Shown piece by piece: positions 7,749-24,867 of a stretch of 64,000 bases of DNA. The position numbers were made by a program, and so were the translations under genes. The notes beneath the pieces are model-generated. The model saw only the letters and a program-made list of their open reading frames with translations, had not been told where the DNA came from and did not search any database. Numbering within the stretch: position 1 is the first letter of the stretch; the number at the start of each line of letters is the position of its first letter. Source of the DNA: a virus; IMG/VR virus record IMGVR_UViG_3300049255_000272, positions 1-64,000 of that record; one strand, 5' to 3'.

Positions 7749-8348
7749 ATGGACGACACCGAGGACAAGGACAAAGACAAGAAGGACGAGCCTAAAGGCA
7801 AACTTCTCGTCCTCCCCGGTGGGAAGAAGATCAACACCGGCGAAATCGGCATGAGCGGGGTCATCGTCGGCCCGAGCGGGAACGTTCCGACCCCGGAAGT
7901 CATCGACCCGAAAGCAGCCGAGCAGGAGCTTCGGGAGCGCGAGGACTACGTCAGGCGCCAGGAACTGGTGCAAGCGGCTACGCGCCGTGGCGCCACTGGC
8001 GAGATGATCGAACTGGCCATCCAGGAGATCACTGAAGAACTCGCCCACCTCAAATTCGAACGTCGCAAGGCTACCAAGGAGGGCAAGCCCACCGTCCAGC
8101 ACACTATCGCCCGCATCTCCATGCTCCGGAACCTGGCCGATGTGCTTCTCAAGCGCCAGGAGAACAACCGCCAAGAGCGGATGGACTTCAGGAGCCCGGA
8201 GTTCAAGAAGGTCATCCACCAATGGCTCGAGTTCATTCACGAGGCCATGCAGAAAGCCGGCGTTGCCGACAACGACATCGACCTGGTCTTTCGACAGATA
8301 GAGGCTGACATGGCCGAGTGGGAGAAGCGCATTTCGGAAGCGGTGTAA
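7749..8348 (+). CDS. Hypothetical protein directly upstream of TerL (possible small terminase or adaptor)
   Basis: 199 residues. A charged disordered N-terminus (DDTEDKDKDKKDEPKGK), a short Gly-rich beta part, then long amphipathic helices from about residue 55 onward (EQELREREDYVRRQELVQAA and the ERRKATKEGKP region), compatible with an oligomeric coiled-coil core. It ends 2 nt before the TerL start. In many phages that position is taken by the small terminase subunit, but no helix-turn-helix is obvious, so this is suggestion from position only. The start has TAAAGT at leaderless spacing and no Shine-Dalgarno. Confidence 0.4.
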   Translation: MDDTEDKDKDKKDEPKGKLLVLPGGKKINTGEIGMSGVIVGPSGNVPTPEVIDPKAAEQELREREDYVRRQELVQAATRRGATGEMIELAIQEITEELAHLKFERRKATKEGKPTVQHTIARISMLRNLADVLLKRQENNRQERMDFRSPEFKKVIHQWLEFIHEAMQKAGVADNDIDLVFRQIEADMAEWEKRISEAV

Positions 8349-8350
8349 TC

Positions 8351-10300
8351 ATGCCGACGCGCGAGCCTGTATTCAAGAGCGAGCTGACTGCAGAGGTGTC
8401 TGGCTTCATCGCCAGGAAGCGGAAGCAAGGCAGTCAGCAGAAGTCGGACACTGAAGGCGATGTTGAGTTCCTCAATATTCTCGAATTCATCGACCGGTTC
8501 AAGCTCTTCCCGGACGGGCTTTTCCCCGCGCAGCGCTTCATCATCAAGCTGTACTACAACATCCCGCTCGACGACACCGAGAAGTGCATCAAGATCACCG
8601 ACAGGTACGGCGACGCGATCAAGCTCGAACTGACCGAGAAGGAATACCTTCAGTACCTGTTCGACAACAAGCGATGCAACATCCGCGAGCAGGACGGGAG
8701 AGAGCGCCGCGAGCTGGTCCTCATCCTCGGCCGCCGTTCTGGTAAGAGCGCGCTCTCGGCCGTCTTCGCGGCGTACGAGCTGTACAAGCTCCTCAAGCGC
8801 GGGCACCCGCAGGCTTACTACGGCATGCCGCCGGGCTCCGAAATTCGTATCCTCGACATCGCGAACGACAAAGAGCAGGCGTCGATCGTCTACAACGACA
8901 TCCAGGGCCACATCCAGGCCATCGACTACTTCAAGTCGTCAGTGGCGCACGACACGCAAACGTTCTTGCGCTTCCGAACGGAAAATGACCGCAAGAAGTT
9001 CGGCCCTGAGGGCAAGGGCACCATTACGGCGACGTTCAAATCATCCATCGCCAAGGGTCTCCGCGGTCGTGGTATCATTTGCGCAATTCTCGACGAGATC
9101 GCATTCTTCGTCGACAACGGCAAAAGCTCGGCCGAACGCGTGTACAAGGCCATCAAGCCCTCCATCGCGCAGTTCGCCAAGAAGGACAAGAAGACCCGCA
9201 AGGCGGTCGGTGATACCGAAGGCCGCATGATTCTCATCTCGTCGCCCGACGCGCGAGAGGGTTTCTTCTACAAGCAGTACGAGATGAGCCTGACGGGCGG
9301 ACCCGAGTCGCGCAACATGCTCATGATCCAGGCGCCGACGTGGGAAATCCGCCCGGACCTTCCCAAGAGCTACTACGAGGAGGAGTACGCCAAGGATCCC
9401 GCTGGCTTCATGACGGAGCACGGCGCTCAGTTCTCGGACCGCGTCCGCGGTTTCATCGAGGACGCCCGGGACCTTCAGGCTTGCATCGTTCCCGACCTGC
9501 GGCCCAAGCAAGTTGGCATTCCGCGCGAGCCCCACTGGGCGGGCGTCGACTTCGGTCTCTCGGGCGACGGCACCGCCATCGCTCTGACTCGTGTCAACTC
9601 GGGCAGGATAGAGCTGGCTTACCACGAGGTGTGGTATCCGAAGAAGAAATGGGCGGAGTGCAATCCTCACTTGCCGTCGCCGATGGTGCCGTACGCCATG
9701 ACTCTCCAGGATCAGGCGAGGCTCGACATCGAAGCCATTGCTGATTGGTTCTTCGCACTCTCGAGAAGGTTCTACATCATCAAGGGAGTGTTCGACCAGT
9801 GGGCGGGCCCCATCTTCGAACAAGTGCTGCACAAGCGCCATCTCATCCAATTCGAGCAGCGCAACTTCTCGACTATGGACTCGTCGCAGATGTATCACGG
9901 GTTCAAGATGAGCATGTACTACAAACAGCTCGCCTTGTACGACTACCCGATTCCTCAGGCTGACGAGACCAAACTGTGGGACGGCAGCAAGCATTCCCCG
10001 CTCATCTCCGAGCTGCTTGAGCTGCAGTCGACGTCGGGTGGAAAGAACATCATCATCGTCGAGGCGCCAAAGATCGCGGGCAAGCACGACGACCAGTCGG
10101 ACGCCCTCGTCCGTTCGGTCGCACTTGCCAACGAGTATGTCAAGGACAACCCGTCCCTCCTGACGGCCGGAACGATCCTCGCCCCGGCGCCTTCGTCACG
10201 GGTGCCGACGTACGGGTATCATCACTATCACCGGATGCGGGACCGCATGCACGGAGGCGGAGCGTCCATGCGACGTGTCCCACGGACAAGACCCCGCTGA
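8351..10300 (+). CDS. terL: Terminase large subunit (DNA packaging ATPase/nuclease)
   Basis: 649 residues from ATG 8351, just after the preceding stop. The ATPase half has a Walker A-type GRRSGKS at 127-133 and a Walker B ICAILDEI with Asp248-Glu249. The nuclease half has the first catalytic Asp in WAGVDFGLSGDGT (Asp400) and late acidic residues in KHDDQSDAL (about 580-584), the RNase-H-like arrangement of large terminases. The enzyme translocates DNA through the portal into the prohead and cuts concatemers. Length is normal for the family. The portal lies three genes downstream. Confident in function; the packaging type (headful or cohesive) cannot be read from this. Confidence 0.93.
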   Translation: MPTREPVFKSELTAEVSGFIARKRKQGSQQKSDTEGDVEFLNILEFIDRFKLFPDGLFPAQRFIIKLYYNIPLDDTEKCIKITDRYGDAIKLELTEKEYLQYLFDNKRCNIREQDGRERRELVLILGRRSGKSALSAVFAAYELYKLLKRGHPQAYYGMPPGSEIRILDIANDKEQASIVYNDIQGHIQAIDYFKSSVAHDTQTFLRFRTENDRKKFGPEGKGTITATFKSSIAKGLRGRGIICAILDEIAFFVDNGKSSAERVYKAIKPSIAQFAKKDKKTRKAVGDTEGRMILISSPDAREGFFYKQYEMSLTGGPESRNMLMIQAPTWEIRPDLPKSYYEEEYAKDPAGFMTEHGAQFSDRVRGFIEDARDLQACIVPDLRPKQVGIPREPHWAGVDFGLSGDGTAIALTRVNSGRIELAYHEVWYPKKKWAECNPHLPSPMVPYAMTLQDQARLDIEAIADWFFALSRRFYIIKGVFDQWAGPIFEQVLHKRHLIQFEQRNFSTMDSSQMYHGFKMSMYYKQLALYDYPIPQADETKLWDGSKHSPLISELLELQSTSGGKNIIIVEAPKIAGKHDDQSDALVRSVALANEYVKDNPSLLTAGTILAPAPSSRVPTYGYHHYHRMRDRMHGGGASMRRVPRTRPR

Positions 10301-11086: not shown

Positions 11087-12880
11087 ATGGCGAAGAAACC
11101 GAAAGTTGGAGTCACTCCCCCGATGCCGGTCAACTCTGTTGACCAGCAGAATGGCTCCAAACAGAAGCTGACGAAGCTCGAGAGGCTCGCTCGCCGGGAG
11201 CAGGCGCAGTCCATCCGTGTCGCCGCGTACGGCGGTACCTTCGGCAATGCTGGCGGCGGAGCCATATCGAACGCGGACTCCGCCTTCTACAGCCCGCAGC
11301 TTTCTACCGACTTCCTCGAGCTGCCGCAGTCCGAGCGCGAAAAGCGCGAGCTGTTTCGGTTCTGGTACGTCACGCACCCCATCGTCGGCGCGGCCATCGA
11401 CTTTCACACCGATGTGCCGATGTCCAAGATCCGTCTTTCGCTCCCGAAAGGCAAGGATCTGGACCGCAACAAGCGCATCCTGCACTTCTACGAGCAGATG
11501 TGCAAGCGGGTTCGCCTGTTCCAGACGCTCTACGATGCCACGCACGAATACTGGCTGCACGGCAACGTCTTCATCTTCTGTGAGGACCACGACCTGACTG
11601 AAGAGATCACCGAAGAGATGATCTCGGACGTCAAGGAAGAGGAAGTTGGAGAGGTTGACTACGCCGGCCGCGCGAAGACCAAGATTGAACGCAAGAAGTC
11701 GCTCAAGCCCGAGACCGAGCGAGTCAAGGCCATTCGAGAGCACGTCGCCAAGAATTACCGGGGCTGGGAGCGCCTCCAGATTCTTCCACCGGAGCAGGTC
11801 AAGCTCGAGGTTTTCCAGTATACCAATCGCGCCAAGATGGAACTGATTCCGTCCGAGAAGGACCGAATCGTCGTCATGAAGGCGCAAGAGCAGCACGATG
11901 ATGAGTCTGCACGGATTGCCGAGGACATCCCGGAGCAGATCCGTGAGAATCTCCTGAGCGGGCAGCCCATCCCGCTCAACACGTCGCCCTATGACGACTT
12001 CCTGTGCTCGTCCTTCTGCTATCACCTGACGCACAAGAAGTCATCCTACGACGACCGCGGCATCTCGATTCTCGAGCGCTGCCTGCGGACTCTGCTCTAT
12101 CAGGACAAGCTGCGCCAGGCGCAGACGTCCATTGCATCGCGCGCGATGACGCCCAAGCGCGTCATTTGGGCCGACAAGATGTCGGAGCCGGACGTCGAGA
12201 ACCTGCGCGACCAGATCGACCAGGCGCTCATCGACCCCGACTTCAGCATCATCATGAACTTCGAGGTCCACTGGGACGAGGTCGGCTCGCGCGACCGTCT
12301 CCTCGATCTCGGAACCGAGTACGAAATCACCAACAAGCTTCTGTTCATCGGTCTGCGCATCACCGAGTCGATGCTCACCGGAGAGTCGACTTATTCAGGC
12401 GAGCGTATTCATCTCGACGTGATGAACACGATGTACCTGCTGTATCGCGAGACGCTCGCGCAATTCGTCGAGGATTATTTGTTTGCTCCGGTCGCCGAGA
12501 AGAAGGGGTTTTGGGAGGAGGACGACTACGGCAACCGAGTCCTGCTTTACCCCAAGCTCCAGTTCACGCGCCTTGCGCTGCGTGACAACTCGGAGCTGCA
12601 GGACTTCATGTTCAACCTCTACAACAAGGGGTCGTTGCCGATTTCGTTCATCCTCGAGCTGCTCAACATCGACGCAGACGAGACTTTGGCGCAGCTCAAG
12701 CGCGATATGTTCACGCCGAATGACGCCAACTTCAATGAATTCCTGCGCACCGTCATGACCAAGGCTGGTGAGGAAGCCCTCGAGGAGACTGATATCCTCG
12801 AGAAGGTCGCCACGGCTGCCGGACTGAAACTATCCAAGAAGAAGGGCGACAGGTTCGGCGGCGGTGAGGGCGAGAAGTAG
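11087..12880 (+). CDS. Portal protein
   Basis: 597 residues. The sequence has the order expected of large tailed-phage portals: a basic flexible N-terminus, an early conserved FWYVTHPIVGAAIDFHTDVPM segment, a helical wing region, a middle beta part with the long Glu/Lys insert at about 165-225, and a stem/clip region (YEITNKLLFIGLRITESMLTGESTYSG) followed by the long crown helices and a disordered Lys/Gly tail. The dodecameric portal forms the DNA entry channel, nucleates prohead assembly and docks TerL. Position after TerL and before the protease and major capsid genes agrees. Confidence 0.85.
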   Translation: MAKKPKVGVTPPMPVNSVDQQNGSKQKLTKLERLARREQAQSIRVAAYGGTFGNAGGGAISNADSAFYSPQLSTDFLELPQSEREKRELFRFWYVTHPIVGAAIDFHTDVPMSKIRLSLPKGKDLDRNKRILHFYEQMCKRVRLFQTLYDATHEYWLHGNVFIFCEDHDLTEEITEEMISDVKEEEVGEVDYAGRAKTKIERKKSLKPETERVKAIREHVAKNYRGWERLQILPPEQVKLEVFQYTNRAKMELIPSEKDRIVVMKAQEQHDDESARIAEDIPEQIRENLLSGQPIPLNTSPYDDFLCSSFCYHLTHKKSSYDDRGISILERCLRTLLYQDKLRQAQTSIASRAMTPKRVIWADKMSEPDVENLRDQIDQALIDPDFSIIMNFEVHWDEVGSRDRLLDLGTEYEITNKLLFIGLRITESMLTGESTYSGERIHLDVMNTMYLLYRETLAQFVEDYLFAPVAEKKGFWEEDDYGNRVLLYPKLQFTRLALRDNSELQDFMFNLYNKGSLPISFILELLNIDADETLAQLKRDMFTPNDANFNEFLRTVMTKAGEEALEETDILEKVATAAGLKLSKKKGDRFGGGEGEK

Positions 12881-18128: not shown

Positions 18129-18650
18129 TTAGCTCTCCATCACCTTGTGGACAACCGCCTCGTGCCAGGCTTCCACGACGTCGCGCTTCTCGAGCCGGTG
18201 CGGGAGACTGAGCAGCAGGTCTCGGATGGCCTTCTTGCCTGCGGCTCGCTCGATCTTGCGCATCAGCTTGCGGTGCCTCTCCTGGAAGGACTTCTTCTGC
18301 GTGGCCTGCGCGAGCTTCTGCTGGATCTTCTTGTAGCACATCTTGGCCTTCGCCTCGGCGGCATCGGCCAGAACGTATGGCCTCTTGACGGGCCGGAGAC
18401 CCGCTGTGAGGAAGACCAAGTCATCCATCGTGTGGTACTTGAAGTTCGGGTCGTCCTTTTTGGTCTCCATCATCTCGCGCCAGTAAGTGAAGGGATGCAC
18501 CTTCTGCTTGCCCCGGCACGAGAATGTGACGCGTGGCCAGAGACACTCGATGAGCGGGGTGTTCTTCTCTATCCCGCTCAGGGAGAGCGTCACCTCTACT
18601 TTCACCACCTCGACGTCGGCGATGAGAGCGATCGCAGCCGGGGTATTCAT
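18129..18650 (-). CDS. Hypothetical protein, 173 aa
   Basis: Divergent from the protease gene. The N-terminal 70 residues are beta-rich, then comes a long basic helical region (KMCYKKIQQKLAQATQKKSFQERHRKLMRKIERAAGKK) suited to RNA or DNA contact. It ends HKVMES, like the gene at 729. No recognised domain. Lies with its small neighbour on the opposite strand within the head operon, suggesting later insertion. Confidence 0.45.
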   Translation of the reverse strand: MNTPAAIALIADVEVVKVEVTLSLSGIEKNTPLIECLWPRVTFSCRGKQKVHPFTYWREMMETKKDDPNFKYHTMDDLVFLTAGLRPVKRPYVLADAAEAKAKMCYKKIQQKLAQATQKKSFQERHRKLMRKIERAAGKKAIRDLLLSLPHRLEKRDVVEAWHEAVVHKVMES

Positions 18651-18727: not shown

Positions 18728-21532
18728 ATGGCCAAGAGAAGGTACGCCCACGCCATCGTTTCTCGTCGGAACATCGCCTTCGACGAGTGGATGGAAGAGC
18801 TGCGCGACCAGCACGAGGGCGCAGTTCCGAAGGACTTCGTGCACCGCACGGCCAAGACGATCCTGCGCAAGTGCGACCCGAAGCAGTACCTGCTGTCGCA
18901 TGCGACCATCGTCGCTTCGGTCGACACCTACGCCCCTAAGGGTGTCAAGACCGGCCGGCTGATGAACCGCGGCTGCCAGATCGACGTCCGGTGGCCTGAG
19001 TTCCGCATCAAGCCCGAGTGCCACAACATCATCAACAACAACGGTGATGCGTGGGAGCGTTCGCTCCTTCTGGCGACCTACCGGACCTTCATCGGCGCGC
19101 ACAACTACCTCGAGCACATCCAGCTCCCCGAGCTGTCGAAGGGCTTCATCGTCGACGCCATCGCGCGTGATCTCGGCAACAGCTGCTACATCGACATCCT
19201 CGTCGCGACCGACCGCAAGCACAACCAGCTCGTGTCGGACATCCTCTCGGGCGCCATCACGGGCCTGAGCATGGGCTGCCATGTCCCTGGAACCCTCGTT
19301 TACCTGTCGGACGGCAGTCCGATAAACATCGAGGACGTCCGCCCGGGTATGGAGGTCATGACGCAGAAGGGGAATTCCCGGCGCGTCGACAACCTGCAGA
19401 TCCGCGAGAATCGTTGGAATGTTCAGACTATCAAGGCGGTCGGGCTTCCTCCTGTCACCTCGACCGATAATCACAACTACTACATCGTCCGCCGCGAGAC
19501 GTTGGATATGGTCCGAACTCGCAGCGGCTGCGGCCACAAATCCAAGCCTCGTGTTGTGGAGAAGGACTACGCGTTCGACTACGCCGAAGCCGGGACTGCG
19601 CGCGTCGGGGACTTCCTCGCTTTCCCCATCTCCCAGGACACCCTGGAAGCGGACGTTTCCCTTACCGAAGCTCGTCTTCTCGGGCTTTGGGTTGGGGATG
19701 GCTGGAAGTTCGAGTACACGCACGACTCCACGGTTGGCGTTGGGTTCTGCCTGGACGAGTCTCACCCCGAGATCGTCGAAGATGCTATTCGCTCACTCGA
19801 CCAAGTAGCTTGGGCTGCGCGCGAATATCATATGGCTGTCGGAGGTGCGCCCATCAAGCCCCAAAGCACGTCCCGTTCGAGTCGCCGAGGTGCGGCTTAT
19901 ATTACGAACACTTCTCGAGCCTTCCGCAGGCTCGTGGACTCCCACGTTTCCGGCAGGAACTCGTCCGAAAAACTTATCGGCAAGACTATCATGAGCTGGC
20001 CGCGGGAACACCAAATGGCGTTCTTGTCGGGCCTCATCGACTCCGATGGGTGCGTTTCGACGAGCAAGCGTGGGACAAAGAATGTCTTCCTCAGCACCCG
20101 CAACCTGAAGCTCGCCCATCAGTACATGCAGCTTGCAGCTCGCTGCGGGATAGTCCCGACCTTCTCTGCCGTGGAGAGACCGGGGACAAGGCTGCTCCAT
20201 GGTGCGGCCGGCGTGGACTACCAGATCAAACTTCGCAATTCGGACGTGGTCCGAGTTCCGTCGGTCAAGGTGCGGTCTGCGCTCGCCGGGATCAAGTCTA
20301 CTCAAGCGGGTCGCAACAGCCGCTGGATCACCGACAAGTACGTCTACTCGGAGATCAAGAAGGTCGTCCGTTCCGAGTACCAGGGATTCGTATATGACCT
20401 CCAAGTCGACGGGGATCACTCTTACGTCGCCAACGGCGTCGGAGTTTCGAATTGCATTTCGCTGTTCACTGCTTGCACGAAGTGCGGCAACGTGGCCGCG
20501 GACGATGCGCAGCTTTGCCCGTGCGTCCTCTACGATGGCAAGCTCTCAACGTTCATCGACGAGACTGGGCGAGAGCAAATCCTCGCTGAAGTCATCGGTC
20601 ACGTTTCAGTTCCCAACTCCAACCAGTTCATCGAGGCGTCGTGGGTCCGCAACCCGGCGTTTCGTGGAGCTGTGCGGCGCAACATCCTGAACCCGGACGC
20701 GAGCGCCGTCTCGTCGCAGATGCAAGCGTCCAAGTACGTCTACGAACTGCGGCAGCAAATCCCGGAGATGGACGGCATCAAGAAGGCCGCCTCCGTGCAG
20801 CGCCGCGCCCAGCAGGGCCAGGAAGAGCAGTCGTTCGACGACGTGTTCGGCGGTCAGGACCAGGGCGGACAGGGCGGCCAGCAGGGCGGTGCGGACGAGT
20901 CGCAACAAGGCGGCGGCGCTGACCAAGCCGAAGAGCAGGGCGGTCAGGACCAAGGTCAGGGCGGTCAGGGCGAGCAGGACCAGGGCGGCAAGGAGCCGAG
21001 CAAGCCGGCAAAGGCAAAGCCCGATAAAATTGATGGGATGCTGGATAAAATTACAGAGCAATTGCTCACCAGCATCACCAACAAGCTCGAGGAGAAGCTC
21101 GCTCCCAAACCCGAGGACGTCGGCACTGCGACTCCAATGCCTGCCAATCTCGAGGCTGGCAACGACAGTCTCGTGCGTTCGAGCCAGGACTTCACTCGCA
21201 TTCTGCGCAAGAAGTTCGGCTCTTCGCCGCGTCTCGTGCAGTGGGCAGAGAAAGCTTACAAGACCGTTCACGAAGGCGGGATCGCAGCGATTCGTCGCGC
21301 CAACATGACGCCTCGTGAACTGATAATCCTTTCATGGATCGAGGATCGATGCCGAGACCGGAACTACCCGCCGAGTCTCTACAAAGCAGTGATGCAAGCC
21401 GGTCCTTCCAGCAGCTACCCGACAACCAACTCATTCATTGCTGCGTGCAAGATGAAGGTTGGTAGGGAGCTGACCGCTCAGGAGCGCAGGTTCCTCGAGT
21501 GGAAGGGTCGGATCGCGTCAGTCAATTTTTAG
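18728..21532 (+). CDS. Prohead maturation protease precursor with LAGLIDADG intein and Gln/Gly-rich tail
   Basis: 934 residues as a precursor, 542 after removal of the intein (184-575). The mature N-terminal part has the serine prohead-protease layout: His125 in FIGAHNYLEH with a following Pro-Glu-Leu turn, about 55 residues to the nucleophile Ser181 in ITGLSMG, and then a CISLFTACTKCGN segment seen after the active site in phage proteases of this type, with CPC further on. The beta end FIEASWVRNPAFRGAV matches the usual last strand. The tail (mature about 300-420) is Gln/Gly-rich and disordered, then helical, possibly a fused scaffold. It should cleave scaffold, tags and capsid protein during maturation. 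Start ATG 18728 follows GAGGAC. Confidence 0.72.
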   Translation: MAKRRYAHAIVSRRNIAFDEWMEELRDQHEGAVPKDFVHRTAKTILRKCDPKQYLLSHATIVASVDTYAPKGVKTGRLMNRGCQIDVRWPEFRIKPECHNIINNNGDAWERSLLLATYRTFIGAHNYLEHIQLPELSKGFIVDAIARDLGNSCYIDILVATDRKHNQLVSDILSGAITGLSMGCHVPGTLVYLSDGSPINIEDVRPGMEVMTQKGNSRRVDNLQIRENRWNVQTIKAVGLPPVTSTDNHNYYIVRRETLDMVRTRSGCGHKSKPRVVEKDYAFDYAEAGTARVGDFLAFPISQDTLEADVSLTEARLLGLWVGDGWKFEYTHDSTVGVGFCLDESHPEIVEDAIRSLDQVAWAAREYHMAVGGAPIKPQSTSRSSRRGAAYITNTSRAFRRLVDSHVSGRNSSEKLIGKTIMSWPREHQMAFLSGLIDSDGCVSTSKRGTKNVFLSTRNLKLAHQYMQLAARCGIVPTFSAVERPGTRLLHGAAGVDYQIKLRNSDVVRVPSVKVRSALAGIKSTQAGRNSRWITDKYVYSEIKKVVRSEYQGFVYDLQVDGDHSYVANGVGVSNCISLFTACTKCGNVAADDAQLCPCVLYDGKLSTFIDETGREQILAEVIGHVSVPNSNQFIEASWVRNPAFRGAVRRNILNPDASAVSSQMQASKYVYELRQQIPEMDGIKKAASVQRRAQQGQEEQSFDDVFGGQDQGGQGGQQGGADESQQGGGADQAEEQGGQDQGQGGQGEQDQGGKEPSKPAKAKPDKIDGMLDKITEQLLTSITNKLEEKLAPKPEDVGTATPMPANLEAGNDSLVRSSQDFTRILRKKFGSSPRLVQWAEKAYKTVHEGGIAAIRRANMTPRELIILSWIEDRCRDRNYPPSLYKAVMQAGPSSSYPTTNSFIAACKMKVGRELTAQERRFLEWKGRIASVNF
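19277..20452 (+). mobile_element. Intein with two LAGLIDADG motifs in the protease gene
   Basis: 392 residues (Cys184-Asn575 of the precursor). Block A is CHVPGTLVYLSDGSPINIED; block B is TSTDNHNYY; the endonuclease motifs are LLGLWVGDG (317-325) and FLSGLIDSDG (432-441); block F is VYDLQVDGDHSYVANG, and the end is GVSN followed by Cys576. The penultimate residue is Ser instead of the common His, which occurs in some functional inteins. Both LAGLIDADG motifs keep their acidic residue, so the homing endonuclease may be active. The insertion lies between Gly183 and Cys576, two residues after the catalytic Ser181. Confidence 0.9.
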
Positions 21533-21569
21533 GACCTTGATAGAAGACCAAGAAGCAGGAGACTCCCAC

Positions 21570-23036
21570 ATGCGTACGCGTTCCACCTGGCAGGGCAACG
21601 GTGCCGCGACCTCGCGTCAGGCGGCGACGCAACGCCAAGCCGACATCTACAAGATGAACCAGGAGCACCCGGATCCCAAGCCGACCGACTACGAGTCGGG
21701 CGACCCGGACAGCTGGGCCGAGTCCTGGCACGGCTACGGTGATGTCGAGGCGGAGTACGAGGGCGGTCACGTCAAGCGGAACGAGCTGAACTTCGCCGAG
21801 TTCCGCGACAACACCTTCAAGCACAAGGACTCCGACAACTGGCACTCGGGCAAGGGGACGTACGACAACGTCAAGCCGGACGGCACCGGGACGTTCTCGG
21901 GCAACACGTCCGGCAAGTCCCAGGGCGAGAAGGCTGGTCGCACCTACGAGGCGGCTGGTCGTCCTGCCACTGCGGCTGACCCGCGCGCCATGGCCGAGCA
22001 GAAGGCCAAGGCAGTCGAGCGCATCACCCGTGCCATGCTGCGCACCTCGAACGACAAGATCGTCGAGGAAGTGGCGATGGGCTTCATGGGGATGCCCGAC
22101 CGCGTCGTCGTCTCGACCCTCCGCGCCCTCGACGCCGTGTCTCCCGACGCGCTGACGCCGGAGAACAAGACGCGCCGCGCGATGGCGTGCACCAAGCTTG
22201 CGGCTCTCCTCATCGGCGAGTCGGCGGCTGACCGGGCCCTCGAGCAGCTGGCGTCGACGATCATGACGATCGACGACCCGACCCTCAAGTCTGTCCTCAA
22301 GCAGGTTGCTGCGGCTCGCGTCGCGCAGCAGCAAGAGGAAGAGGAGGAGCAGCAGCAGGGCAAGACCTCCCAGCAGCAGCAACAGCAGGGTCAGCAGCAG
22401 CAGTCCCAGCAGGAGCAGCAGGGCCAGCAGCAGCAACGTGGCCAGCAGCAACAGCAGGGTCAGCAGCAGATGATGGGCCAGCAGGAGCAGCAGGCACAGC
22501 ATCCGATGATGGGCCAGCAGCAACAGCAGGGCCAGGAGCAGGAGGAGCAGCAGGAGATGGGCATGCCGCACATGGGCGGCGACCTTCCGCCTGCCGAGCT
22601 TCAGATGCTCGATCAGATGCTGAAGGAGGAGATGGGTCAGCAGGGCGTGCCCGCGGGCGACGACCTCCAGGCCCTCTTCGAGGCGGCTCCCGCACCGGCG
22701 GCTCCTGTCGCTCCGGTGATGGCGACCGCGACGGGTGCGCAGCCCGACATCTCCTTCGACGAGGAGGACGAACTCCAGGCGACTCCGGCTGGCGTCACGG
22801 CGGCTGCCGTGGCCTCGCATGGCGACGAGCTGGACAACCTCTTCGGCGACAACGAGGAAGTTCAGGCTCAGCGCCAGATCAAGGCTGCGGAGCAGGAGCA
22901 GCACGCTCGCGAGATGGGCAACTTCTCGGTCGGCCGCACGGCTTCCGTGAAGGGCGCCAAGAAGATCGGTCAGGTCCAGCGCGGCAAGCCCGCGTCGGTC
23001 GACCAGGCCCTGGAGAACCTCTGGGACCGTCCGTGA
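21570..23036 (+). CDS. Scaffold-like protein with poly-Gln tract
   Basis: 488 residues; ATG 21570 follows AGGAGA. Residues 1-130 are Gly/Asp/Lys-rich and extended; 140-245 form a helical domain (MAEQKAKAVERITRAMLRTSNDKIVEEVAMGF onward in pieces); 252-330 are almost pure Gln/Glu with Gly spacers, and the last 140 residues are acidic and helical. The short EEEEQQ-GKTSQQ signature is also present in the 12919 protein. Position directly after the protease and before the capsid genes matches a scaffold protein, but no scaffold family is identified. AQ-rich cleavage sites are not obvious. Confidence 0.5.
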   Translation: MRTRSTWQGNGAATSRQAATQRQADIYKMNQEHPDPKPTDYESGDPDSWAESWHGYGDVEAEYEGGHVKRNELNFAEFRDNTFKHKDSDNWHSGKGTYDNVKPDGTGTFSGNTSGKSQGEKAGRTYEAAGRPATAADPRAMAEQKAKAVERITRAMLRTSNDKIVEEVAMGFMGMPDRVVVSTLRALDAVSPDALTPENKTRRAMACTKLAALLIGESAADRALEQLASTIMTIDDPTLKSVLKQVAAARVAQQQEEEEEQQQGKTSQQQQQQGQQQQSQQEQQGQQQQRGQQQQQGQQQMMGQQEQQAQHPMMGQQQQQGQEQEEQQEMGMPHMGGDLPPAELQMLDQMLKEEMGQQGVPAGDDLQALFEAAPAPAAPVAPVMATATGAQPDISFDEEDELQATPAGVTAAAVASHGDELDNLFGDNEEVQAQRQIKAAEQEQHAREMGNFSVGRTASVKGAKKIGQVQRGKPASVDQALENLWDRP

Positions 23037-23976: not shown

Positions 23977-24867
23977 ATGAATCCCTTCGGCGTTCAGGTT
24001 GTCGACAACACGATCAAGGAGCAGGTCGTCGACAAGTTCATCGGCTCTTCGGCTGGTCGCAAGCGCCTCGCGGCGTCCATGATCCAGCCGCTCCGCGAGC
24101 GGCGCGACTACTCGTCCGTGGGTCGCAAGACCTTCCTGGTCGAGCAGCTGCCCGACGGTGCTCTCCCGATCTACGACAAGGATCCGGATGTCACCGCGTA
24201 CGTCATCGGTGAGGAGGGCGAGAGCATCACCGCGGTCATGAAGCCGCGGCGCGTGATCTTCCCGCTCTTCGAGATCGCCGCCCTGCCCAAGGCCCCGCTC
24301 ACGCAGATCAAGGAGCGTCGGTACGACCTCCTCAAGCGTATGCAGGACCTCGGCAAGGCGCAGGTCCAGGCGGCAGAAGACGACCGCGTCTTCTCCATCA
24401 TGGACGCGCTCGCCGTCAACGGCTTCGACGAGCTGCCGGGGCAGACCAACCCCGACGTCCCCGTCATCGCTCCGATCTCTCCGGCCGTTCTCGCGGACGC
24501 GTTCGCCGAGATCGAGCGGCAGGACCTCCGCGTCGCTCGCGTCTACATGAACGCGACCGACTACGCGGACATCCGCAAGTTCGGGCGCGACGTGCTCGAC
24601 ATCGAGAGCCAGGCCACGCTGTGGAAGACGGGCATGATGGCGACGGGCTGGAACGCCCAGTTCATCGTCAGCCGCCTCGTCGCCGCCGGCGTCGTCTACA
24701 TCACGTGTGAGCCGGAGCACTTCGGTCGCATCCCGGTCCGCACGGAGCTGACGGTTCTCTCGGCCGACAACCCCGAGGAGCGGACAATAGGTTTCTCAAT
24801 GTTCGAGAACCTTGGCATCGGGGCGTACAACCCCCGCGGCCTGGTGCGCCTGATCGTCGCGCGCTGA
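23977..24867 (+). CDS. Major capsid protein, HK97 fold
   Basis: 296 residues; AAAGG lies upstream of ATG 23977. The N-terminal arm and basic spine helix (GRKRLAASMIQPLRERRDYSS), the E-loop-like region (FLVEQLPDGALPIYD), the long helix (LTQIKERRYDLLKRMQDLGKA) and the P-domain/A-domain end (FGRDVLDIESQATLWKTGMM, then CEPEHFGRIPVRTELTVLSA and GIGAYNPRGLVRLIVA) match HK97-fold major capsid proteins of large phages. It forms the icosahedral shell. No intein or fused protease. Translation should be very high; codon use is biased to G/C-ending codons. Followed by a strong terminator hairpin. Confidence 0.82.
   Translation: MNPFGVQVVDNTIKEQVVDKFIGSSAGRKRLAASMIQPLRERRDYSSVGRKTFLVEQLPDGALPIYDKDPDVTAYVIGEEGESITAVMKPRRVIFPLFEIAALPKAPLTQIKERRYDLLKRMQDLGKAQVQAAEDDRVFSIMDALAVNGFDELPGQTNPDVPVIAPISPAVLADAFAEIERQDLRVARVYMNATDYADIRKFGRDVLDIESQATLWKTGMMATGWNAQFIVSRLVAAGVVYITCEPEHFGRIPVRTELTVLSADNPEERTIGFSMFENLGIGAYNPRGLVRLIVAR

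Follow-up and report, generated by a model that had tools for sequence, protein, structure and literature searches.

A mobile class 1 LAGLIDADG intein in the predicted nucleophile strand of a putative phage prohead protease

The window analysed here is a 64,000-nucleotide stretch of viral DNA, positions 1 to 64,000 of IMG/VR record IMGVR_UViG_3300049255_000272. On its plus strand, a single open frame encodes an extein–intein–extein precursor in which a LAGLIDADG intein interrupts a putative capsid maturation (prohead) protease. The precursor gene and its parts are given below with the evidence for each. Residues are numbered on the precursor, and a slash in a motif marks a splice junction.

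18728–21532, plus strand: prohead-protease precursor gene, 934 residues, stop codon included in the span (single open frame)
18728–19276, plus strand: N-extein, residues 1–183, holding His130 and Ser181 (sequence and family conservation)
19277–20452, plus strand: class 1 LAGLIDADG intein, residues 184–575, 392 residues (profiles, motifs and model)
19277–19315, plus strand: intein block A, CHVPGTLVYLSDG, whose first residue is the nucleophile Cys184 (first Cys invariant in 23 intein rows)
19463–19474, plus strand: intein block B, TxxH, here TDNH (sequence and intein alignment)
19676–19702, plus strand: LAGLIDADG motif 1, LLGLWVGDG (sequence)
20024–20050, plus strand: LAGLIDADG motif 2, LSGLIDSDG (sequence)
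20387–20425, plus strand: intein block F, FVYDLQVDGDHSY, which contains DHSY (sequence)
20432–20452, plus strand: intein block G, NGVGVSN, ending in Asn575, with Ser574 and not His as the penultimate residue (sequence and alignment)
20453–21529, plus strand: C-extein, residues 576–934, whose first residue is the +1 nucleophile Cys576 (sequence)
20453–20524, plus strand: zinc-ribbon-like segment C-x6-C-x2-C...C-x-C directly past the splice junction (Zn_ribbon_3 below cut-off; putative zinc binding)
20627–20647, plus strand: segment FIEASWV, holding Glu636 (244 in the spliced protein), which is put forward as the third catalytic residue (conservation)

The insert carries the marks of an intein. 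In Pfam, LAGLIDADG_3 (PF14528) matches the precursor at E 1.4e-13, and TIGR01443, which describes the intein C-terminal region, scores 24.1 bits (cut-off 15.6). The class 1 residues C184, TDNH, the block-F His, N575 and the +1 C576 are present, as are two LAGLIDADG endonuclease motifs, each with an acidic residue. An AlphaFold2 model built from 23 related inteins reached a mean predicted local distance difference test score (pLDDT) of 90.8, and its best PDB match was 2cw7 (Z 29.9, root-mean-square deviation (rmsd) 3.8 over 315 residues). The best 50 PDB rows were all inteins, intein-like or hedgehog Hint domains, or LAGLIDADG endonucleases; the Mtu RecA, Ssp DnaB and hedgehog Hint rows, at Z 16–18, identify a Hint fold, and the I-DmoI rows lie at Z about 17. 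Another IMG/VR record, the 240-kb contig L001, encodes an identical precursor protein. An earlier note, made from the sequence alone, had described a 392-residue LAGLIDADG intein directly after SMG; its numbers for Ser181, Cys184 and Asn575 agree with the translated frame, and LAGLIDADG_3, TIGR01443, the structural model and the empty sites in relatives bear out the intein itself.

Intein-free alleles define the insertion point. The sequence SMG-C-ISLFT runs uninterrupted in the close relatives L002, L003 and L004, among other examples, so the insert sits exactly between Gly183 and Cys576. Homologue searches yielded 166 frames; 4 without the His-to-Ser signature were set aside and the remainder formed 96 clusters. 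Eight of these carry an intein at the window's SMG/C position (site a), two carry one just before His130 (site b), and 86 have neither, with the family-profile match also unbroken in those 86. This count omits the phage records L006–L009 and also L001 and L005, which are the window protein itself, with L038 as their representative. Among 313 isolated-phage records that match the extein of Eggerthella phage LE2-3, a split match occurs only in LE2-3, which is a lower bound.

What, then, is the interrupted protein? Searched against PHROGs, the spliced window protein scores E 4.8e-15 with phrog_2774, of unknown function, and E 3.2e-8 with phrog_18299, 'head maturation protease', the latter matched by 82 of the 82 rows of our family alignment, A4. 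We modelled the extein fold on the intein-free homologue L002 (residues 1–305), whose block-mean pLDDT exceeds 90 across residues 51–260. The top 35 rows of a VIA structure comparison were herpesvirus proteases or T4 gp21 only, with T4 gp21 (5jbl) at Z 10.1 and rmsd 2.7 over 125 residues, against Z ≤7.0 for unrelated rows. The same model gave 141 matches at E ≤0.001 among predicted viral proteins, led by phage G gp19, and 12 of the best 50 bear the name prohead protease or head maturation protease. The gene also lies within a head module, in the order terminase, portal, protease precursor, HK97-fold capsid protein:

8318–10300, plus strand: terminase large subunit (phrog_2, E 3.3e-26)
11087–12880, plus strand: portal protein (phrog_16240, E 2e-26)
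23977–24867, plus strand: HK97-fold major capsid protein (phrog_2522, E 2.7e-46; NF042927 above cut-off)

Predicted fold and gene context together support the extein as a capsid maturation protease of the T4 gp21/herpesvirus-protease fold, in line with the protease identity that the earlier note had given it. Most of the listed relatives in isolated phages are annotated as hypothetical proteins. A Gln/Gly-rich stretch in the C-extein (window 20849–20992) and a Gln-rich 499-residue protein encoded between the protease and capsid genes (21537–23036) are both possible scaffold-like parts. Directly upstream of the precursor, on the minus strand, lies a putative 173-residue gene (18129–18650) with no PHROG match.

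We next located the probable catalytic residues by conservation. Ser181 is Ser, and His130 is His, in all 82 family rows. Because 81 of these rows were selected by a search pattern containing SMG and CxxCG, the invariance of Ser181 is partly a product of selection; that of His130 is free of it. The acidic residue of the [E/D]ASWV motif is Glu in 63 rows and Asp in 19. On this basis Ser181 is the best nucleophile candidate, His130 is likely the catalytic base, and Glu636 is probably the third catalytic residue. The earlier note had named Ser181 correctly by this measure, but its choice of His125 as the base fails, as that position is His in just 40 of the 82 rows. The order His, Ser, acidic residue is that of T4 gp21 and the herpesvirus assemblins; by motif, Glu636 corresponds to Asp168 of T4 gp21, which stands with His85 and Ser140, and we take these three to be the catalytic residues of gp21. 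In the L002 model, predicted strand 179–186 both holds Ser181 and spans the splice junction; the intein therefore breaks the predicted nucleophile strand, consistent with the earlier proposal that it splits the active-site loop. The T4 gp21 triad has itself been aligned with H-77, S-153 and D-178 of SPN3US gp245 (PMC5694885; this and the other articles cited by PMC number are represented here by excerpts).

Directly after the nucleophile strand comes the zinc-ribbon-like segment, CxxC...CxC/H. An insert of this kind is common to the protease family (residues 184–207 of L002, for example), and T4 gp21 and HK97 gp4 have no equivalent cysteine cluster at this point. We do not claim that inteins pick the most conserved spot in the protein: the ±5-residue window around site a ranks no higher than the 54th percentile within the folded core.

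We propose, with a probability of about 0.83, that a mobile class 1 LAGLIDADG intein has entered a prohead protease of the gp21/herpesvirus fold and that splicing of this intein completes the active site. The established base of this proposal is the precursor anatomy, the empty sites in relatives, the predicted folds, the intact splice and endonuclease motifs, and horizontal movement, which is described below. The precursor would be translated with the intein in place, separating Gly183 from Cys576 inside the strand of Ser181 and two residues past that serine. Cys184 would attack the Gly183 carbonyl, the chain would be transferred to Cys576, and Asn575 would cyclise, aided by the block-F His in place of the absent penultimate His. 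Joining of the exteins would restore SMG-C, and an active site of His130, Ser181 and Glu636 would be complete only after splicing. At the DNA level, the endonuclease would cut intein-free alleles and so spread the insert among related phages. In an engineered comparison, DnaBi1 insertions ≤14 residues and ≤16 Å from the KanR active site were always splicing-dependent (PMC7360933); by analogy, the protease activity likely depends on splicing as well. Ser574 need not imply slow splicing, because in a mycobacteriophage intein with a native penultimate Gly, substitution by His slowed the reaction (PMC5050341).

Several results weigh against this interpretation. For the extein, no Pfam peptidase model scored above cut-off and neither S77 nor S78 was among the listed families; a PDB sequence search gave 0 matches; hhalign probabilities to T4 gp21 (0.6%) and HK97 gp4 (1.0%) were not significant; and plain Foldseek against the PDB gave no match at E ≤0.001 and none below 0.037. 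With profile, PDB sequence and plain Foldseek comparisons all non-significant, we dropped sequence-level kinship to T4 gp21 or HK97 gp4. For the intein, Pfam Intein_splicing scored 23.4 bits on the precursor, below its cut-off of 35.8, and the usual penultimate His of block G is replaced by Ser574. Splicing, its requirement for activity, the catalytic roles and DNA cleavage are, moreover, what we infer from these data.

Comparison of exteins with inteins revealed that the inteins move horizontally between phages. The inteins of L032 and L034 share 95% nucleotide identity, with a synonymous divergence (dS) of 0.15 and a nonsynonymous-to-synonymous ratio (omega) of 0.12, and the flanking exteins are far more diverged (N segment 74% identical with synonymous sites saturated; C segment 78%, dS 2.41). 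As dS is saturated in most pairs, omega could be obtained for few. The window extein is nearest to that of L036 among the intein-bearing relatives compared (94%, N-extein), and the two inteins are just 44% identical. In trees of 10 members, two of them with partial exteins, the exteins group the window with L036 and L032 with L033 and L034, whereas the inteins group the window with L032 and L034, and L033 with L039. Swapping the clades is rejected in each of four approximately unbiased (AU) tests (p 9.7e-4 to 3.6e-12), although these p-values do not come from a blind test, as the clades were chosen after the identity matrix had been inspected.

The window's insertion is one of many. We determined both junctions for 34 distinct inteins (95% identity) at seven positions, one of them tentative: 23 at site a, SMG/C; 3 at site b, just before His130; 2 at site c, SMGxx/C; 2 at site d, INNN/S; 2 at site e, the third cysteine of the ribbon; 1 at site f, EHN/S, in a tentative family member; and 1 at site g, SG/TSMG, just before the Ser. 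Thirty of the 34 lie within four residues of Ser or His, a share inflated in part by a search that targeted the window's own site. The set combines homologue searches, an intein search, two DNA patterns, a further family scan and one phage record. The DNA pattern built for site a supplied 13 of the 23 site-a inteins and the site-f intein, the pattern built for site b supplied L217 (b and d), and the intein search supplied L180, L183 and L184. When the query was the full precursor or just the protease, the yield was 13 distinct inteins (7 at a, 2 at b, 2 at c and 1 each at e and g), 12 of them ≤4 residues from Ser or His. Inteins with only the N-junction determined, namely L200, L201 and L194 (a), L218 (b) and L228 (e), were excluded from the 34. 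The prohead protease thus looks like a recurring target for mobile inteins. The earlier note had called such an insertion not commonly described, which fits the literature searched but understates its occurrence in environmental phages.

Some frames hold two inteins. All junctions were determined in L180 (d and a), L184 (a and e) and L217 (d and b); L194 carries f and a inteins, the end of the second missing; in L196 the tail of a site-b intein precedes a site-a intein. L174 (4556–4954) and L196 (713–1114) have inteins of 133–134 residues at SMG/C that lack an endonuclease domain and end with a penultimate His. Three site-e inteins (L184, L267 and L228, the last by its N-junction only) interrupt the zinc-ribbon-like segment, and in L245, from 2764, an intein with a +1 Thr lies directly ahead of the catalytic Ser (SG/TSMGC). 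Inteins at different sites can be related, as with L213 (a) and LE2-3 (c), which are 39% identical. The penultimate residue is Ser in 13 of the 23 distinct site-a inteins, counting that of the window, and His in 9 of 11 at other sites; since the sequences are related, this contrast is a lead and not a test.

Intein matches also occur elsewhere on contigs of relatives. The window's own 111-kb record has a single Intein_splicing match, the protease intein, and contigs of relatives (G009, which is the L180 contig, G006 and G002) have extra matches in other long frames, with up to 7 per contig among 13 records. Matches to 'dmt' methyltransferases were rejected as protease homologues because the similarity overlaps the intein part of the queries. 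Dmt methyltransferase genes of P1-like phages (MH160767.1 57198–60485; OP279344.1 61963–62946) have weak similarity to that part, and Dmt may therefore hold an intein or its remnant.

These distributions bear on readings that assign splicing a regulatory role. A broader proposal, which we advance as speculation, is that the catalytic centre of the prohead protease is a phage-wide intein target (seven points, five of them ≤4 residues from His or Ser) and that in some lineages splicing acts as a second zymogen lock, its activation speed tuned by penultimate-residue changes and by endonuclease loss, as in L174 and L196. A claim for the window itself, which builds on the earlier note, is that splicing is a timer: an inactive precursor would be packed into the prohead, and slow splicing would activate the protease after assembly. 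The junction two residues from the nucleophile suits such a role, as do the frequent penultimate Ser at site a, the altered precursor build-up that followed a penultimate-residue change in a phage intein (PMC5050341) and the persistence of endonuclease-less inteins in L174 and L196. Yet 86 of the 96 homologue clusters lack an intein at sites a and b and show an unbroken profile match, the site-a inteins are horizontally mobile, inteins also sit at sites d and e, away from the nucleophile, and the faster intein in PMC5050341 was the non-His one. We consider a timer unlikely.

Zinc or redox control is less probable still. Since Cys576 adjoins the zinc-ribbon-like segment, a metal bound by cysteines of the extein could keep the precursor unspliced until conditions shift; cysteines 576, 583, 586, 597 and 599 cluster at the junction, three site-e inteins split the same ribbon, and zinc on a splicing nucleophile blocks a mycobacterial DnaB intein (PMC7360933). 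However, intein-free members carry the ribbon too, zinc binding by it is putative, and the homologue's Cys184 is modelled within the nucleophile strand, ahead of the ribbon. Finally, a defective intein, leaving the protease dead or cleaved without ligation, would fit the penultimate Ser and the sub-threshold Pfam splicing score but is very improbable given the intact C1, TxxH, block-F His, terminal Asn and +1 Cys, the omega of 0.12 between two close inteins, the open frame with an identical protein on two records, and a phage intein with penultimate Gly that splices completely (PMC5050341).

The insert, probably a homing and self-splicing intein, lies in a structural-assembly protease that has been invaded at several points flanking its catalytic residues in widely diverged phages. 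The resulting set of natural variants (without an intein, with one, with two, or with an intein that lacks the endonuclease) makes it possible to ask whether inteins in essential enzymes are parasites only or also switches, with capsid-protein cleavage as a simple read-out. There is also a gain in annotation: hypothetical relatives, and a 'tRNA synthetase' of phage LE2-3, become assignable to the protease family.

Inteins in active centres, at several sites and mobile, are already known. In the excerpts of PMC5050341, mycobacteriophage terminase large subunit (TerL) inteins occupy several active-centre sites of a head-assembly enzyme, are mobile and vary in their penultimate residue, as here; TerL, unlike the protease, is a DNA-handling ATPase. 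Every phage intein host in that survey binds nucleic acid, and the part of its Table 1 represented here lists no capsid protease among them. Prp8 carries inteins at seven sites of one essential protein, but it is a eukaryotic spliceosome protein (PMC6805012). A ClpP protease intein, cited in the sources at hand among inteins with noncanonical penultimate residues, is organellar and not in a capsid protease. The Jug phages, rich in introns and inteins, have prohead protease genes that are 'fragmented and/or highly divergent' (PMC12363816), and the excerpted text does not attribute the fragmentation to an intein in the protease. The literature searched, with partial coverage, held no explicit account of an intein in a prohead protease, and within it the host protein appears to be new.

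On the protease side, T4 gp21 (5jbl) and the herpesvirus assemblins share the predicted fold over model residues 49–264 (Z 7.7–11.4), the His-Ser-acid order and the place in the head gene cluster. T4 gp21 has no intein and no significant profile similarity to the window family, which differs from both T4 gp21 and the assemblins in its zinc-ribbon-like insert after the nucleophile strand and its long Gln/Gly-rich C-terminal part. Nearer relatives are Bacillus phage G gp19 and Tunturiibacter phage Tunturi_5 gp331 ('head maturation protease', phrog_18299), members of the same family with SMGC, CxxCG and the invariant His; like the window gene, they adjoin head genes, but both are without an intein. 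A parallel in an isolated phage is gene LE23_71 of Eggerthella phage LE2-3 (L006 5854–8967; MW679026.1 45222–48335), the 'tRNA synthetase' mentioned above, which belongs to the prohead-protease family and likewise has an intein in the nucleophile loop. That intein sits two residues further on (SMGLN/C), has a penultimate His and is 28% identical to the window's.

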